Shown here one piece after another: positions 14,519 through 61,921 of a stretch of 64,000 nt of DNA (its first letter is position 1; the number at the start of each line of letters is the position of its first letter). The DNA is from Natrarchaeobaculum sulfurireducens (GTDB taxonomy: Archaea > Halobacteriota > Halobacteria > Halobacteriales > Natrialbaceae): contig NZ_CP024047.1 of NCBI RefSeq assembly GCF_003430825.1, positions 3,410,001 to 3,474,000 on the forward strand, given 5' to 3'. The notes under the pieces were generated by a model, which did not search any database, was not told the origin of the DNA, and was given only the letters and a program-made list of their open reading frames with translations. The position numbers and the translations under genes are program-made.

Positions 14519-17500
14519 TTAGCTGGCCTCCCTCTCGGCTGGCGTAGCCGTCTCCGGCTCGAACAGCTGGGTTAACAATCGTTGCTGGGCGATCCGCAGG
14601 TGTCGGTTGACCGTCGGCTGGGAGACGTCGAGCATCTCGGCGACGTCTTCGCCGGTGCTCTCGCGGGGCCACTCGAAAAAGCCCGCGAAGTACGCCGTCC
14701 GCAGGACCTCGAGCTGGCGGTCGGTCAGTTCGTCGAACAGCGCGGTGACGAGTTCGCGTCGGGTGTGCATGGTTCGTTCGACGTGCTGGCGACTGCGGAG
14801 GTCGACCTCGCCGTGATGGTCCGCGACCACCGCGACGAACTCCCGGACGTCGGTTCCGGTCGGGACGTCGACGGTCACGACGGTCTCGTCCCCGTCGGCG
14901 CGGATCGTTCGGGGGCTAGCACCGTGGCGAACCAGCCGGGAGGCGAGAGTGTCGCCCGCGACGAGTGCTTCGAAGCGACAGCGATCCTCGTCGTGGCTGA
15001 TCAGCTGGTGTTCGGAAACCGAGACGAGATCCGTCAGGACCTCGCTGACCGCGTCGGGTGACGAGCCGCGCGTCTCGAAGAACAACACGGTGTCCTCGCC
15101 GGTGTTCGTCCCCAGCCCGTCGAATGCGACGCGAGCGTTCGTCAGTGAGGCGATCCGCGAAAGGACGTCCGAGGAATCGGACAGCGAGAGCGTGAGTTCG
15201 ACGAGCGTCTCGGCGTGCAGTGCCTCTCTGGTCTTCGTCGCAGTGACCGCGTTCGCGATCGCCTCGCCGAGTTCGGTGAACACCGTTTGCTCGAGCGCCG
15301 TGAACGCGTCCGGTTCGGTCGCGTAGACGGTCAGGACGCCGTAAGAGTACTCCTCGAGTTCGAGCGGAACACTGATCGCCGACTGGAAACCGGCGTCCAG
15401 CGCCTGGCGTCGCCAGGATTCGTGCTGGAGGTCCTCGATCACGTTCTCGACGACCGACGGCTCGTCGCTGCGGGCCGTCTTACAGGACGGCTCGGTCGAG
15501 CCGGCGACGTCGAGTGAGATCCGGTCCAGATACTCCTCGTTCGAGCCGGCCCAGGCGACGGGCTCGAGAGAAGCATCAGCCGCATCGGGCCGGCCGATCC
15601 AGGCGAACGCGACGCCGTCGGCTTCGACGAGTCGTTCGGGGACCGTTCGTTCGATCTCCGCCCGACTCGTCGCGCCGATCAGCGACTGGTTGACCCGCCT
15701 GATCGTGTCGTTGATCGTTATCTGTCGGCGGAGCCGGCGGTTTCGCGCCTCGAGTTCGGCGTCGCGTTCGCGCAGGTTGGCCTCGCTCTCGAGGCGATCG
15801 AAGGCGGCTTCGATGGTCGCGACGAGCGTCTCGATCGACCGGCGTGACTGGGCGTCGATCGGCGCACCGTCGGAGGCGGCCGTGAGGACGCCGTGGTCGC
15901 CGACCGGCACGACGACGGCGCTCTCGACCACCGCGTCGAACACCTGTGAGCGATCGAACGCGGTCGGGTCATCGACGACCGTCTGTGCGCCCGTCACGAA
16001 CGCGTTCCAGAGCACCGAGTCGCCGTTACCGACCGTCGCCGACGGGTCGTCACTCGAGAGACGGTCGAACGCGTCGGTGTGTGCGATCGGAACGAGCCGG
16101 TTCACCTCGGCGTCGAGGCGGTAGAGCGCGACGCCGGTGGCCTCGAGAACGTCTTCTGCGGCGTCGATGACGATCTCGGCGACGTCGTCGGCCGTCTCCG
16201 CCCCGAGCAGGCCGCGGGCAGCCTCGTGGAGCGACTCGAGTGTGAGTTCGCGCTGTTTCAGGTCGGTGACGTCCTGGAGTGCGCCCTGGTATTTGATGAG
16301 GTCGCCGTCTTCGTAGACTGGCACTCCGAAGACGCGAACCCACCTGGTTTCCCCAGGGGTGGGCTGCATCCGAGCCTCGATGTCGTAGACCGTCTCGCTC
16401 GAGATGGCCGCCTCGAGTGTCTGGCGAACCCGGGCTCGATCCTCGGGATGGTACTGATCGATCGCCATCGAGAGGTCGGGCTCCGTGTCCTGCGGTAAGC
16501 CGTGTAACTGATACAGCTCCGTCGTCCAGGTCGGCACCGGCGGCTCGGTGCGCAAATCGAGTTCCCAACCGCCGATGCTCGCCAGATGCTCGACCCGCTC
16601 GAGCAGTGCCCGCGTTCGCTCGAGTTCTCGCTCACGTTCTTTCCGGTCGGTAATATCCTGGATCGTCCCCCTGACGGCGACGATCTCACCGTCCTCGACG
16701 ACCGGTTCTGCCAGCGATCGGACCCAGCGATGCTCACCCTGTTCCGTAATGAACCGTGCCTCGAGGTCGTAGGCCTCTCCGTCCCGAATCGCCTCGTCGA
16801 TCGCAGATCGTAGCCGGGGCCGGTGGTCCGGGTGGTAGTGATCGAGCCCCACACCGAGTTCGAGTTCGTCCGGCTCGACGCCGTGGATTCGGGCAGCCTC
16901 GCCGGTCGCTCGAGCCTCGTACGGCTCCTCGGCCACGTCGAGTTCCCAGCCGCCGACGTTCGCCATCTGCTGGGACTGCTCGAGCAGCGTCCGCATCCGC
17001 TCGAGTTCCCGCTCGCGTTCCTTTCGGTCGGTCACGTCGCGGAGGACGCCGACCGTCCCCTGGAACTCGCCATCTGTCAATGGCAACAGTGCCATGTGGT
17101 TTTCGACGTGGACCTCCTCGCCGTCTTTGGTACGAAGTGTAATCTCGAACGTCTGGGACGGGTCGTTCGCTCTGAGCAGTTCACGGATCCGTTCCTGGGC
17201 GGTCTCGACGTCCGACTCGGTCATCACCGTCGAGACGTGCTCGCCGAGCAGTTCCTCGGACTCGTAGCCGAGAATCGGTGTGATCGCATCGTTGAGGAAG
17301 GTGAAGCAGCCCTCGTCGTCGACTTCGTACACCAGTTCGTCGAGCACCTGGATGATCGTCTCCGAGCGCTCGAGTTCGCGCTCGCGTTCTTTCCGATCGG
17401 TGATATCCTGGATCGAGCCATGGATCGTGACGACCTCACCGTCCTCGCGGACAGGCTCACCCAGAATCCGAACCCACCGCTGGTTGCCACCGGCCGTGAG

Positions 17501-21521: not shown

Positions 21522-21594
21522 TGGTGAGCCGACAATAACACTCGGGCCAGTTCAGCGTGTCGGCCGACTCGAGCCATCGACCGGTTGGGCCGCG

Positions 21595-22590
21595 TTAGCG
21601 GGCCCCACCACGGAGTCGGGTGACCGTCACGTCCGCTCGCCACGTTCCCGTCGCCGTCACGCGGTCCCCATCGACGTCGACGGACGCCTCGTCCGCGGAG
21701 ATGCCGAGGAGGTCTTCGAGGGCGACCTCGTCTGGATCGTCGACGATCGCGGCGAACTCGCCGGTCGAGGTCTCTTCGTCGACGACCGTGAGCGAGGAGA
21801 CGATCCCCTCCGCGTCCTCGAGTTCCGCGTACGTCATGTCGACGAGCGCGTCCGCCGTGGCGACCCGATCACCGTACTGACCGACCACGACGTCTCCGTC
21901 GCCGGCCGTCTCGACGAGCCACTCGAGCGACTCGGACGCCTCGACCGCGCGGGTGTCGTCGCCCGCCGAGACCTCGATGGCTCGCTCGAGTCGTGCCGTC
22001 GGCTCGTCCACCTCGTCGACGACCACGAGCGCGTCGTCGCCGACCCCGATCGCCACGTCGTTCCCCTCGACTGGGGTGTAGACGTCGTCGTCGCCGACCT
22101 CGTCCGTTTGCTCGAGCTGCCTGACGAACTCGAGTTCCGGCTCGGCGGTGAGCCGGTCGTCGATCTCCTCACGTTGGATGTCCCCGGCCAGGACGACCAT
22201 CTCGGCCGTCTGGATCACGTCCTCGACCGTCGTATCGAAGGCGTCCTCGTCGAGGAGTCCGCCGAGTCCGTACTGGGCGAGGTCCAGCCCGACGACGAAG
22301 TACGCCGAGAGCATCCCCTCGGAGACGGGTGCGACCATCGGGTCCGCCTCGTACTCCGTCGGCACCGCCTCGCCCGGCTGTGCCGCCTCGAGTTCGTCGG
22401 TCACGTACTCCGCTACGGACGCCCAGTCGACGGCGACGAACTCGAGGCTGTCGTCGGTCTCGAGCCAGTCGGTGTACGTCAGGAGGTCGTCGTCCTGTGC
22501 GGAGACTGCGCTCGGACCTGCAAGCCCGAACGCCGCGACCGTCGCCGTCGCAGCAGCGAACTCGAGGACGTCACGTCGGCTTCGGTTCAT
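21595..22590 (-). CDS. Twin-arginine-exported protein, unknown function
   Basis: A 331-residue protein that begins MNRSRRDVLEFAAATATVAA, a twin-arginine signal with a hydrophobic core ending at AVSAQ, so it should be exported folded. The mature part is acidic, with repeated valine-rich strands and no recognisable catalytic motif. A TATA-like GGCTATATCGGC at about 22611-22622 precedes the ATG at 22590. It has its own promoter and is not part of the ABC transporter operon upstream. Longer readings upstream are out of register with this signal peptide and were rejected. Confidence 0.75.
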   Translation of the reverse strand: MNRSRRDVLEFAAATATVAAFGLAGPSAVSAQDDDLLTYTDWLETDDSLEFVAVDWASVAEYVTDELEAAQPGEAVPTEYEADPMVAPVSEGMLSAYFVVGLDLAQYGLGGLLDEDAFDTTVEDVIQTAEMVVLAGDIQREEIDDRLTAEPELEFVRQLEQTDEVGDDDVYTPVEGNDVAIGVGDDALVVVDEVDEPTARLERAIEVSAGDDTRAVEASESLEWLVETAGDGDVVVGQYGDRVATADALVDMTYAELEDAEGIVSSLTVVDEETSTGEFAAIVDDPDEVALEDLLGISADEASVDVDGDRVTATGTWRADVTVTRLRGGAR

Positions 22591-22678
22591 ACCGTTCGAT
22601 ACGCCGGTGGCGCCGATATAGCCCGCCCCAACCCTCGTCACTCGGTGACTGTCGGCGGTCCGTTGAAACGGCTCACCG

Positions 22679-23461
22679 TCAGATGTCTCGGCGGACGAAG
22701 ACGACGACGGCGAGACCCACCAGGAGGAAAAAGACCACCGATAAAAGCGCGGCGTCGGCGAACGCGTACTCCTCGTGGACGAGGACGTCGGTCTCCTCCC
22801 AGTACCGACTCGGGGTAAACGCGCCGATCCACTCGTACTCCGGGTCAACGCGGGAGACACCGTCGACCAGCCAGCAGACGAACACCAGGGTCAACGCCGT
22901 TGCCCTGGCGCGTCTCGCGTGGTCGACGACCACCGACAGCACGAGCCCGATCCCGGCACAGACCAGCAGATAGGGGATCGAGAGCAGGTGGACCATGGCG
23001 AGTGCAACGGGGTTGAACGACTCGCCGATGGTGAGCGCGCCGACGTAGACGATGATCGGGACCCCGACGTTCAGCGCGACCAGCGGGACCCAGAGGGCAG
23101 CGATCTTCTGGAGGACGATCGACTCGCGTGAGACCGGGTTCGAGAGCGTGAGATCCATCCGCCGGTCCTGGACGTCGCTCGCGATCAGCCCGGCACCGAC
23201 GTACGCGAAGTAGATCGCGACGAGGAGACTCCAGAAGAACGAGTAGATCTCTGCAGCGATGAACCCCTCGATCGTGTGGAGTTCTTCGATCCCGAACATA
23301 TCGAACATATACTCCGGGAACGCTGCCTCGAGTGCGTCCATCTCCGCCTGGATGCCGGGGAACATCGAGAAGTACAGCGCCGACAGGACGGCGAAGACGG
23401 CGACCAGGAGGAGCGAGCCCCGGAGACGCTTTCTGGACTCGAGTCGGAGAATCGCGGTCAT
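22679..23461 (-). CDS. ABC-2 type transporter permease (copy 2)
   Basis: A 260-residue integral membrane protein with six or so hydrophobic helices, the ABC-2 permease type found with stand-alone ATPases in export. Typical segments are RRMDLTLSNPVSRESIVLQK and SRVDPEYEWIGAFTPSRYW, the same as in its neighbour. It overlaps the preceding permease by four bases (ATGA) and is translationally coupled to it. The two permeases are paralogues of identical length. Substrate is not predictable; haloarchaeal members are variously linked to antimicrobial or multidrug export. Confidence 0.85.
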   Translation of the reverse strand: MTAILRLESRKRLRGSLLLVAVFAVLSALYFSMFPGIQAEMDALEAAFPEYMFDMFGIEELHTIEGFIAAEIYSFFWSLLVAIYFAYVGAGLIASDVQDRRMDLTLSNPVSRESIVLQKIAALWVPLVALNVGVPIIVYVGALTIGESFNPVALAMVHLLSIPYLLVCAGIGLVLSVVVDHARRARATALTLVFVCWLVDGVSRVDPEYEWIGAFTPSRYWEETDVLVHEEYAFADAALLSVVFFLLVGLAVVVFVRRDI

Positions 23462-24240
23462 ATATCCCTCCGGACGAAGATGCCGACGGCGAGGCCGACC
23501 AGGACGAGAAACGCCACGAGGAGGATCGCGGCGTCGAGGAGGGCGTACTCTTCGTGGACGAGGATCGCCGACGGATCGTAGTACCGACTCGGCGTGAGGT
23601 CGCCAACCCACTCGAAGTCGGGATTCATCTGCGAAAGGCCGTCGACCAGCCAGAGAACGAACACCAGCACCAGTGCCGTCGCCTGGGCCGTCTCGACGCG
23701 GTCGACGGCGACGGAGAAGACGATCCCCAACCCGGCACAGACCAGCAGGTACGGAATCCCGAGCAGGTGGACCATCGCCAGCGGGACGAGGTCGATCGAC
23801 TCCTCGAGGATGACCCCACCGACGAGCAAGACGGCCACCAGTCCGGCGTTCAACCCGACCAGCGGAACCCACAGGGCGGCGACGTTCTGGAGAACGACCG
23901 ACTCGCGCGAGACCGGGTTCGAGAGCGTGAGATCCATCCGCCGCGTGCGGACGTCTCGCGAGATCAGCCCCGCACTGACGTACGCGAAGTAGATCCCGGC
24001 CAACAGGATCCAGATAAACGGGAAGAGGTAGCCGCCGACGAATCCTTCGAGCGTGTGGAGCTCTTCGACCCCCAAGAGCGTGAGGAGATACGCCGGATAC
24101 ACCTCCTCGAGCAACGCCGCTTCGTCCTGGATGGCCGGAAACACGACGAGAAAGAACACCGAGAGCATGACGAGCAGTCCGGTGAGGGTGAGCGTCCCGC
24201 GAACCAGCTTCCGCGATTCGAAGCGCAGAATAGCCGTCAT
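23458..24240 (-). CDS. ABC-2 type transporter permease (copy 1)
   Basis: A 260-residue paralogue of the downstream permease with the same topology and the motifs RRMDLTLSNPVSRESVVLQN and DFEWVGDLTPSRYYD. It overlaps both neighbours by four bases, so ATPase, permease 1 and permease 2 form one operon. The DNA segment aligns with copy 2 at a constant offset of 779 bases, the mark of a tandem gene duplication. A heterodimeric pore is likely but not shown. Confidence 0.87.
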   Translation of the reverse strand: MTAILRFESRKLVRGTLTLTGLLVMLSVFFLVVFPAIQDEAALLEEVYPAYLLTLLGVEELHTLEGFVGGYLFPFIWILLAGIYFAYVSAGLISRDVRTRRMDLTLSNPVSRESVVLQNVAALWVPLVGLNAGLVAVLLVGGVILEESIDLVPLAMVHLLGIPYLLVCAGLGIVFSVAVDRVETAQATALVLVFVLWLVDGLSQMNPDFEWVGDLTPSRYYDPSAILVHEEYALLDAAILLVAFLVLVGLAVGIFVRRDI

Positions 24241-25130
24241 CCTGCCTCCACAGGCTCGTCTCCATAGTAGTGTTTGAAGATGTCGTCGAGTTGCGGATCA
24301 CCGATGTCGACGTCGTCGATCTCGTACCCGACGAGGTGCTCGAGCAGTGCGGCGGGCTCGCCGGTGTAGGTGAACCGCACCGTCGTGTCGACGGTCTCGA
24401 CGTCGATCATCTCTGGCGTGCGGAACGTCTCCTCGTCGACCGGCTCCGCCAGTTGCACCCTGACGTCCTTCCCGCCGCGTCCGAGCAGGTCGTCGATCTC
24501 CTCTAGGGCGACCAGTGTGCCCTCCCGGATGATCCCCACGCGATCGCAGACGCGCTGGACCTCACTCAGGATGTGCGAGGAGAAGAAGATCGTCGTCCCG
24601 GCGTCGCGTTCGCCCTCGAGAAAGGCGTACATCCGGTCTTGCTTGAGCGGGTCGAGTCCCGACGTCGGCTCGTCCATGATGACGAGATCCGGATCGTGCA
24701 TGAACGCCTGGACGATCCCGAGCATCCGTCTGTTGCCGTGTGAGTAGTTCTCGATTGGCTTCTCGAGCGGTGGGTGAAAGAGATCCAACAGTTCCGCCCG
24801 GCGCTCGCCCCCGCGCATCCGCGCGAAGTGATCGAGCACCTGCCGACCGGTGAGTCGCTCCTCGAACCCGAGATCGTCGGGGAGATAGCCGATGTTCGCT
24901 TTCGCCTCGGTGAGCGCACGTCGGTCACGGATGTCAGCTCCGAGAACGGTCGCGGTCCCCGAAGTCGGTTTGATGAGCCCGAGCAGCAGTCGAATCGTCG
25001 TCGTCTTCCCGGCTCCGTTCGGTCCGAGGTAGCCGAATATCTCCCCCGAACCGACGTCGAAGGTAACCTCGTCGTTCGCAGTGGTCTCCCCATACCGCTT
25101 GGTGAGATCGACGAGTTCGATGGCAGTCAC
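24237..25130 (-). CDS. ABC transporter ATP-binding protein
   Basis: A 297-residue ATPase subunit. Walker A is GPNGAGKTT near residue 38. The signature region is altered here: instead of LSGGQ it reads YSHGNRRMLGIVQAF. Walker B is LVIMDEP with the switch downstream. The C-terminal 80 residues are the extension seen in ABC-2 ATPases of the CcmA/DrrA type. A GTG start at 25130 was chosen because a TATA-like CTTGAAGTAG lies at about 25152-25161; longer readings run into upstream non-coding sequence. It drives the two downstream permeases. Confidence 0.88.
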   Translation of the reverse strand: MTAIELVDLTKRYGETTANDEVTFDVGSGEIFGYLGPNGAGKTTTIRLLLGLIKPTSGTATVLGADIRDRRALTEAKANIGYLPDDLGFEERLTGRQVLDHFARMRGGERRAELLDLFHPPLEKPIENYSHGNRRMLGIVQAFMHDPDLVIMDEPTSGLDPLKQDRMYAFLEGERDAGTTIFFSSHILSEVQRVCDRVGIIREGTLVALEEIDDLLGRGGKDVRVQLAEPVDEETFRTPEMIDVETVDTTVRFTYTGEPAALLEHLVGYEIDDVDIGDPQLDDIFKHYYGDEPVEAG

Positions 25131-25238
25131 AGGGTACGTACGTGTCAGAACTACTTCAAGCGATGGGGGCCAGTCACCGCGAGAGAACCGGAAGCTAGCG
25201 GGAACGCGACTGCTAGCGAAGCGGTGGTACACAACGAC

Positions 25239-25466
25239 GGCCGAAACGACTCGAGCCGACGGTAACCTACACCGACGGCCGAAACGACTCGAGCCGACGG
25301 TAACCTACACCGACGGCCGAAACGACTCGAGCCGACGGTAACCTACACCGACGGCCGAAACGACTCGAGCCGACGGTAACCTACACCGACGGCCGAAACG
25401 ACTCGAGCCGACGGTAACCTACACCGGCGGCCGAAACGACTCGAGCCAGCGGTAACCTACACCGGC
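25239..25466. repeat. Six tandem 38-bp repeats upstream of the ABC transporter
   Basis: Six head-to-tail copies of a 38-base unit start at 25239, 25277, 25315, 25353, 25391 and 25429. The first five are nearly identical; the last two show C/G drift in the ACCGAC and GCCGAC segments. Each unit begins GGCCGAAACG and has a near-palindrome CGACTCGAGCCG and a short inverted pair CGGT...ACCG. The length is not a multiple of three, so the array is not coding. It lies about 80-310 bases before the ABC promoter and just after the end of ahcY. There are no spacers, so it is not CRISPR. Confidence 0.9.
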
Positions 25467-25530
25467 GGGCGAGGCTGGGCGTAAACTGGCGGTGGTCGGC
25501 TGCCGACCGGACGAGCAGAGCGACGCCCGC

Positions 25531-26820
25531 CTACGTTCCGTGGTCCCACGAGCCCATGTACTCGCGCTGGGTGTCGGTCAGCGAGTCGAACGCGACGCCG
25601 TCGGCCTCGAGTTTGATCTCGGCGATCTCCGCGTCCAGTTCGTCGGGAACGTCGTGGACGCCCGCGTCGTAGGCGGCTCCGTTCTCGACCAGTTCACGCA
25701 CACAGGCAGCCTGGACGCCGAAGCTCTGGTCCATCACCTCGACGGGGTGGCCGAGCGCGATCGGCGCGGCGAGGTTGACCAGGCGACCCTCGGCGACGAC
25801 GTTCAGTCGGCGGCCGTCCTCGAGTTCGTACGCCTCGACGCCCTCGCGGGCCTCGTAGCGGTCGACGGCGAGGTCGTCGAGCGCCTCGAGGTCGATCTCG
25901 ATGTCGAAGTGCCCGGCGTTGGCGAGCAAGACGCCGTCTTGCATCCGCTCGAAGTGTTCGTCGACGATGATGTCGCGGTTACCGGTCGTGGTGAGGAAGA
26001 CGTCACCCACTTCGGCTGCCTCGGCCATCGGCATCACGTCGTAGCCCTCCATGTGGGCCTCGAGGGCGCGTCGTGGCTCGACTTCGGTGACGATCACGTT
26101 CGCGTTCTGGCCGGCGGCCTTGCGGGCGACGCCCTTGCCACAGTAGCCAAAGCCGGCGACGACGACGTCCTTGCCCGCCCACGAGAGGTTCGTGGTCATG
26201 GCGATCGACGCCAGCGAGGACTCGCCGGTGCCGTGGACGTTGTCGAACAGCCGCTTCATCGGCGTGTCGTTCACGGCGAAGACGGGGTACTCGAGTGCGC
26301 CGTCGTCGTCCATCGCACGCAGGCGATGGACGCCCGTGGTGGTCTCCTCTGCGCCACCGACGATGCCGTCGATCAGTTCGGGGTAGTCCTCGTGAATCGC
26401 GGCGACGAGGTCCATCCCGTCGTCGACGGTGATGGTGGGCTCGTGGGCGATGACGGCCTCGATGGCGTCGTAGTACTCCTCGTCGTCGACGCCGCGCTTT
26501 GCGTAGCAGGTGATCGACTCGTGGGCGTCGAGCGCGGCGCTCACGTCGTCGTGGGTCGACAGCGGGTTACAGCCCGTCACCGCAACTTCGGCCCCGCCCT
26601 CGGCGAGCGTCTCGACCAGGATTGCGGTCTTCGCTTCGACGTGCATCGCCATCGCGATCCGCTCGCCCGAAAGCGGCTGGTCGGCGACGAACTCCTCGCG
26701 GACGGCATCCATGATCGGCATGTGCTGGGCGGCCCAGTCCATCTTTCGGCGGCCTTCCTCGCGGGCCGTCTCCGTCTCGTCCAGCTGATCGCTGATCGGC
26801 GGATACGCGTTGTCGGTCAT
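25531..26820 (-). CDS. ahcY: Adenosylhomocysteinase family protein (SAH/SIH hydrolase)
   Basis: A 429-residue NAD-dependent hydrolase that splits S-adenosylhomocysteine (or S-inosylhomocysteine) into homocysteine and a nucleoside. NAD binding is seen as GFGYCGKGVARKAAG near residue 225. Other family blocks are GCNPLSTHDDVSAAL, CYAKRGVDDEEYYD, NDTPMKRLFDNVHGTGESS and NAGHFDIEIDLEAL. It lacks the C-terminal insert of eukaryotic enzymes. Start ATG at 26820. A nucleoside deaminase-like gene lies 1.5 kb upstream, hinting that the substrate could be the deaminated form; this is inference. Confidence 0.93.
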   Translation of the reverse strand: MTDNAYPPISDQLDETETAREEGRRKMDWAAQHMPIMDAVREEFVADQPLSGERIAMAMHVEAKTAILVETLAEGGAEVAVTGCNPLSTHDDVSAALDAHESITCYAKRGVDDEEYYDAIEAVIAHEPTITVDDGMDLVAAIHEDYPELIDGIVGGAEETTTGVHRLRAMDDDGALEYPVFAVNDTPMKRLFDNVHGTGESSLASIAMTTNLSWAGKDVVVAGFGYCGKGVARKAAGQNANVIVTEVEPRRALEAHMEGYDVMPMAEAAEVGDVFLTTTGNRDIIVDEHFERMQDGVLLANAGHFDIEIDLEALDDLAVDRYEAREGVEAYELEDGRRLNVVAEGRLVNLAAPIALGHPVEVMDQSFGVQAACVRELVENGAAYDAGVHDVPDELDAEIAEIKLEADGVAFDSLTDTQREYMGSWDHGT

Positions 26821-61507: not shown

Positions 61508-61921
61508 ACGCAAGCGATACCCGACCAGCGTCCAAAACCGTTTCGACGTTGCAGACCTGCCACATCGGATGGACGCCGCCGACCGCCCACCGGCCACATC
61601 GGATGGACGCCGCCGACTGCCCACCGGTCGCCCACCGCTCGCTGACCGACGATTCCGGTAGGTGAAATCCGTGTTTCAGCTTCCGCTGTATATAATGCCC
61701 GACGACGTGTACCCGAAACTGCGTCTCGAACGCCGGCCTGGCAGGGTATCGACACCCGCCAGTTCGATTCCACCCCACCGGTCGCAAAGACGCGTCCCGA
61801 GCCCGTCACGACACCGCTCCCGTCGGTCGGGTTCGCCCCCATCATCGCCCATCTCCCGCTGACGTTCGGCCCACGTCGCCCTCCACCGACAGTCCGAACC
61901 CGACTCGAGCCGAGCTGTCCG
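61508..61921. other. Intergenic region with a 34-bp tandem pair
   Basis: About 414 bases between the small membrane protein and phosphoesterase genes, on the same strand. It contains two copies of a 34-base unit (61561-61628). No gene is supported. Confidence 0.5.
61561..61628. repeat. Two tandem copies of a 34-bp unit
   Basis: CACATCGGATGGACGCCGCC followed by GACCGCCCACCGGC at 61561 and again, with two base changes, at 61595. Length not a multiple of three; no gene overlaps. Possibly a minisatellite. Confidence 0.7.

Follow-up and report, generated by a model that had tools for sequence, protein, structure and literature searches.

The closest described counterparts of the array analyzed here are prokaryotic minisatellites or satellites (VNTR when polymorphic), which it resembles in its head-to-tail, near-identical intergenic units, its restriction to a single locus and its diverged ends. 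A survey of 142 archaeal genomes reported few satellites in most species, and in Halobacteria periods that are multiples of three and lie within genes predominate (PMC6749651). With its non-triplet period of 38 bp and its non-coding location, the array differs from these and falls into the class that is less common there. A second point of comparison is provided by archaeal intrinsic terminators. In Haloferax volcanii, a T-stretch plus TC motif was common to 748 of the 807 termination sites that are intergenic; 503 sites were preceded by hairpins, and one structure that was assayed ended transcription, albeit with lower efficiency (PMC7237163). The array resembles these 3′-end motifs in its position 3′ of a gene (ahcY), its predicted hairpins and its short T stretches followed by C, but differs from them in having T-runs of at most three nucleotides and six regular copies and in being unconserved.

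TRF analysis of the 64-kb window (the whole stretch of DNA that was analyzed) gave as its top-scoring tandem repeat an array at 25231-25472 with a period of 38 bp, 6.4 copies as assembled and 97% matches (score 442, consensus ACACCGACGGCCGAAACGACTCGAGCCGACGGTAACCT). The near-perfect six-copy array placed by the initial annotation at 25239-25466 is therefore real and represents the same repeat trimmed at both ends. Unit-by-unit comparison revealed that copies 2 to 5 are identical, whereas copy 1 carries one change and copy 6 carries three; together with a seventh copy that fades past approximately 14 bp, copy 6 forms a degenerate ahcY-side end (25421-25472). The 22-bp core of the unit was matched six times in the window with up to three mismatches, against 0.01 matches expected in shuffled sequence. 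Each unit contains TTTC, and the unit has an internal direct repeat, CCGACGG, present twice.

The array lies in a non-coding gap of 400 bp between ahcY and the gene of an ABC transporter ATPase, both of which are on the minus strand, and no gene predicted by a simple codon-based gene finder overlaps this gap. The upstream same-strand neighbor ahcY (25531-26820, minus strand) encodes an adenosylhomocysteinase (TIGR00936, 537 bits at a cut-off of 497.6) and ends 59 bp from the array. On the other side, the ATP-binding protein gene (24237-25130, minus strand, GTG start; Pfam ABC_tran, E 1.7e-25) starts 101 bp away, separated by a non-repeated leader of 100 bp (25131-25230, minus strand) that, judged from sequence and gene prediction, would hold the ABC promoter. 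Given the strand of both genes, the array is located 3′ of ahcY and, on the upstream side of the ABC gene, approximately 100-342 bp from its start; the earlier description as directly upstream of the promoter needs correction, since the array does not lie immediately at the promoter. The ATPase gene is followed by genes for a first (23458-24240) and a second (22679-23461) ABC-2 type permease, both on the minus strand and matching Pfam ABC2_membrane_2, and by a last cassette gene without family match (21595-22590, minus strand) that goes with the transporter in relatives. At the DNA level, the permease genes are 71-79% identical to each other along stretches of 237 and 300 bp (22673-23217 versus 23452-23996) at a spacing of 779 bp; they represent a tandem gene duplication that relatives also have.

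The four-gene ABC-2 cassette (21595-25130) is absent at this site in five relatives (G021, G016, G007, G011 and G020), in which ahcY lies beside the genes that flank the cassette on its left in the window. Within the flanks examined, the ABC gene was next to ahcY in none of 103 related loci. These sequence comparisons are most simply read as an arrival of the cassette at the ahcY site, or its transfer to it, in this lineage. Since the five relatives lack it here, the array would mark the ahcY-side junction created when the cassette was inserted or relocated in this lineage.

The genome is that of a haloarchaeon of the Natrialbaceae; one of its plasmids matches a plasmid of Natrarchaeobaculum sulfurireducens AArc-Mg at 99.6% identity across 92% of a 20-kb query, which makes this the probable species. 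Within its own genome the array occurs at one locus only, with no solitary unit elsewhere; the unit is thus not scattered over many loci, which the initial annotation had named as an outcome that would speak against its proposals. BLAST searches detected no homologue of the array among 125 genomes from the family or among 392 from the order, the weak hits being single matches of 28-31 bp, gene-internal triplet repeats or different arrays. BLAST of the array region against plasmids and a comparison with Rfam gave no match, and an exact scan for the 22-bp unit core found none in species genomes and viral contigs, a set that may leave out records very near to the own genome. In contrast, orthologues of the ABC gene are 75-86% identical across the family. 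Among the upstream regions of 103 related ABC genes, in which some genomes are represented twice, only that of G023, a member of another genus, contained a comparable array. This array (L243 9045-9197, also L156) has a period of 38 bp composed of two 19-bp halves and is located at the 5′ edge of the orthologous ABC cassette; homology with the array studied here was rejected, as the alignment showed unrelated sequence. A perfect 19-bp array of 6.7 copies in G143 (L217 8809-8936, CAGAAACGACTCGAGAAGG) has GAAACGACTCGAG in common with it, but this kinship was likewise discarded as probably due to chance in CTCGAG-rich genomes, the locus being unrelated.

How ordinary such arrays are was estimated from approximately 2.68 Mb sampled from the own and related genomes, which contained 21 non-triplet arrays of at least 2.8 copies. 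Seven of them were strong (96-100% matches, score >150; L141, L248 with two, L189, L272, L274 and L194), counted after setting aside those that had led to their loci. The resulting density of strong out-of-frame arrays, approximate because it derives from sampled stretches of which some were picked for synteny, is about one per 300-400 kb or some ten per genome, with units of 19-59 bp. In agreement with the few satellites per prokaryotic genome that have been published (PMC6749651), few loci carry a near-perfect out-of-frame array, yet for a genome to have some is ordinary. Unrelated units form arrays in the own genome (L194, 59 bp × 5.4; L189, 34 bp × 3.8) as well as in G003 (L272 and L274), G097 (L248, twice) and Haloferax (L141), mostly outside predicted genes. 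The L194 array (16434-16750; C3 at approximately 2,636,434 of the own genome) is intergenic, 99% matched and longer than the one studied here, and in G097 two unrelated intergenic arrays (L248 3827-3980 and 15601-15782; 22 bp × 7 and 23 bp × 7.9) lie within 12 kb. A further non-triplet repeat of the window itself, at 61555-61627, comprises 2.1 copies of a 34-bp unit with 94% matches.

We consider it probable that the array represents a young intergenic minisatellite, confined to a single locus, that arose by slippage or unequal recombination and most likely has no conserved function. The minisatellite reading, already among those offered by the initial annotation, agrees with the single, undispersed locus, the near-perfect head-to-tail units (38 bp × 6.4 at 97%, within the range of about 10-100 bp), the non-triplet period, the intergenic location and the degenerate ends. 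Between ahcY and the cassette, which itself would have come here by lineage-specific insertion or relocation, a short seed sequence may have been expanded by slippage during replication or by unequal recombination; the direct repeats within the unit (two copies of CCGACGG) may have provided this seed. The same processes would also keep the inner copies identical; identical inner and diverged outer copies are as expected under them, and an array of this kind would be unstable. Any effect would then be incidental to its being a structured spacer that separates two same-strand genes. Two findings speak against a neutral minisatellite. One is a hairpin potential above that of tandem arrays of shuffled units, unlike most of 12 comparison arrays, which were not outstanding against this null. 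The other is the period-38 array that borders the orthologous cassette of G023 on its 5′ side; such a coincidence would not be expected under neutrality, although as a single after-the-fact case it weighs little.

The main rival to this reading, which we regard as unlikely on balance, is that the array acts at the transcript level as a spacer or terminator: in RNA read from ahcY, a series of hairpins with a UUUC close to each of them would stop or trim the ahcY RNA and insulate the transporter genes. For two units, predicted RNA folds reached -41.8 kcal/mol on the sense and -34.0 kcal/mol on the antisense strand, with z-scores of -3.2 and -3.6 against a tandem-aware null in which one unit was shuffled and then duplicated; the null was exceeded in about 199 of 200 cases. 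The sense-strand fold of the whole gap gave -157 kcal/mol and a z-score of -5.6 against plain shuffles, which ignore the tandem repetition and therefore overstate the effect. The position 3′ of the same-strand ahcY, the TTTC in all units and the hairpins that accompany part of the termination sites in Haloferax (PMC7237163) fit such a role, as does the lack of any run of four or more T in the 400 nt between the two genes, so that no ordinary T-tract terminator is present there. However, among 30 ahcY loci, comprising the own gene and those of 29 relatives, 20 had no such run within 200 nt; with only 10 loci having one, its lack is not special. Measured against its own null, the plus strand folds just as well, which shows the fold to lack strand specificity, and the array is not conserved. 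A T-rich tract at the 3′ end, as in archaeal intrinsic terminators, is missing, the TTTC of each unit, with T-runs of three at most, being a partial resemblance, and a pattern scan for bacterial promoters and terminators, which is not apt for archaea, found neither a promoter nor a terminator-like site. As regards the earlier suggestion of termination hairpins, the units fold above the tandem null and a longer T-run is lacking between the genes, but no canonical terminator was found. On these modeled folds, a role of the array in limiting readthrough is possible.

An operator with multiple sites for a regulator of the exporter, as also suggested in the initial annotation, is improbable. Tandem near-dyad units upstream of an ABC gene, and the period-38 array upstream of the G023 orthologue, could be taken in its favor. 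An array of operators would be conserved upstream of orthologues or recur at members of a regulon; 102 of the 103 related upstream regions lack a comparable array, the one in G023 is unrelated, and no solitary unit occurs elsewhere in the genome. The operator reading thus fails its main test because the array is not conserved upstream of orthologues; the array also ends about 100 bp from the ABC start codon. The near-palindrome noted earlier in each unit is weak evidence as well: its core, CTCGAG, has 314 occurrences in the 64-kb window and is therefore not distinctive of the units, and the ungapped self-complementarity of the unit (18 of 38 positions) is ordinary, being reached by 8852 of 20,000 shuffles. 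Each unit can, according to the fold predictions, form a stem-loop, yet it is not a simple operator-like dyad. A conserved operator is not supported by these sequence comparisons.

Very improbable, in our view, is that the array is a scar left when the cassette was brought beside ahcY, such as a junction repeat or the end of a mobile element. It does sit at the junction of cassette and ahcY, where five relatives have no cassette, and the other cassette edge (21565-21579) matches part of the unit over 15 bp. Against this, the shared CGACTCGAGCC is common, with 26 occurrences in a 664-kb sample of the own genome, six of which fall in the array; the ends of the cassette showed no convincing long terminal repeats, and the 38-bp unit was not found at other loci. 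There is an equally slim chance that arrays of hairpin units arise repeatedly at the 5′ edge of the ABC-2 cassette in different lineages, here and in G023 with different sequence and the same 38-bp spacing, and act as a length-variable insulator against the adjoining gene. A CRISPR array, which the regular repeats and the 38 bp seen in CRISPR repeats bring to mind, was rejected because the units abut without spacers, and a coding array because of the period of 38 and the lack of an open frame across it.

As a probable minisatellite, the array is mostly unremarkable, as a genome of this family has perhaps ten loci of the kind, and it could serve for strain typing. If it is true that its series of hairpins limits readthrough, the array would represent a natural case in which tandem duplication at the junction of an insertion has produced a terminator-like element.
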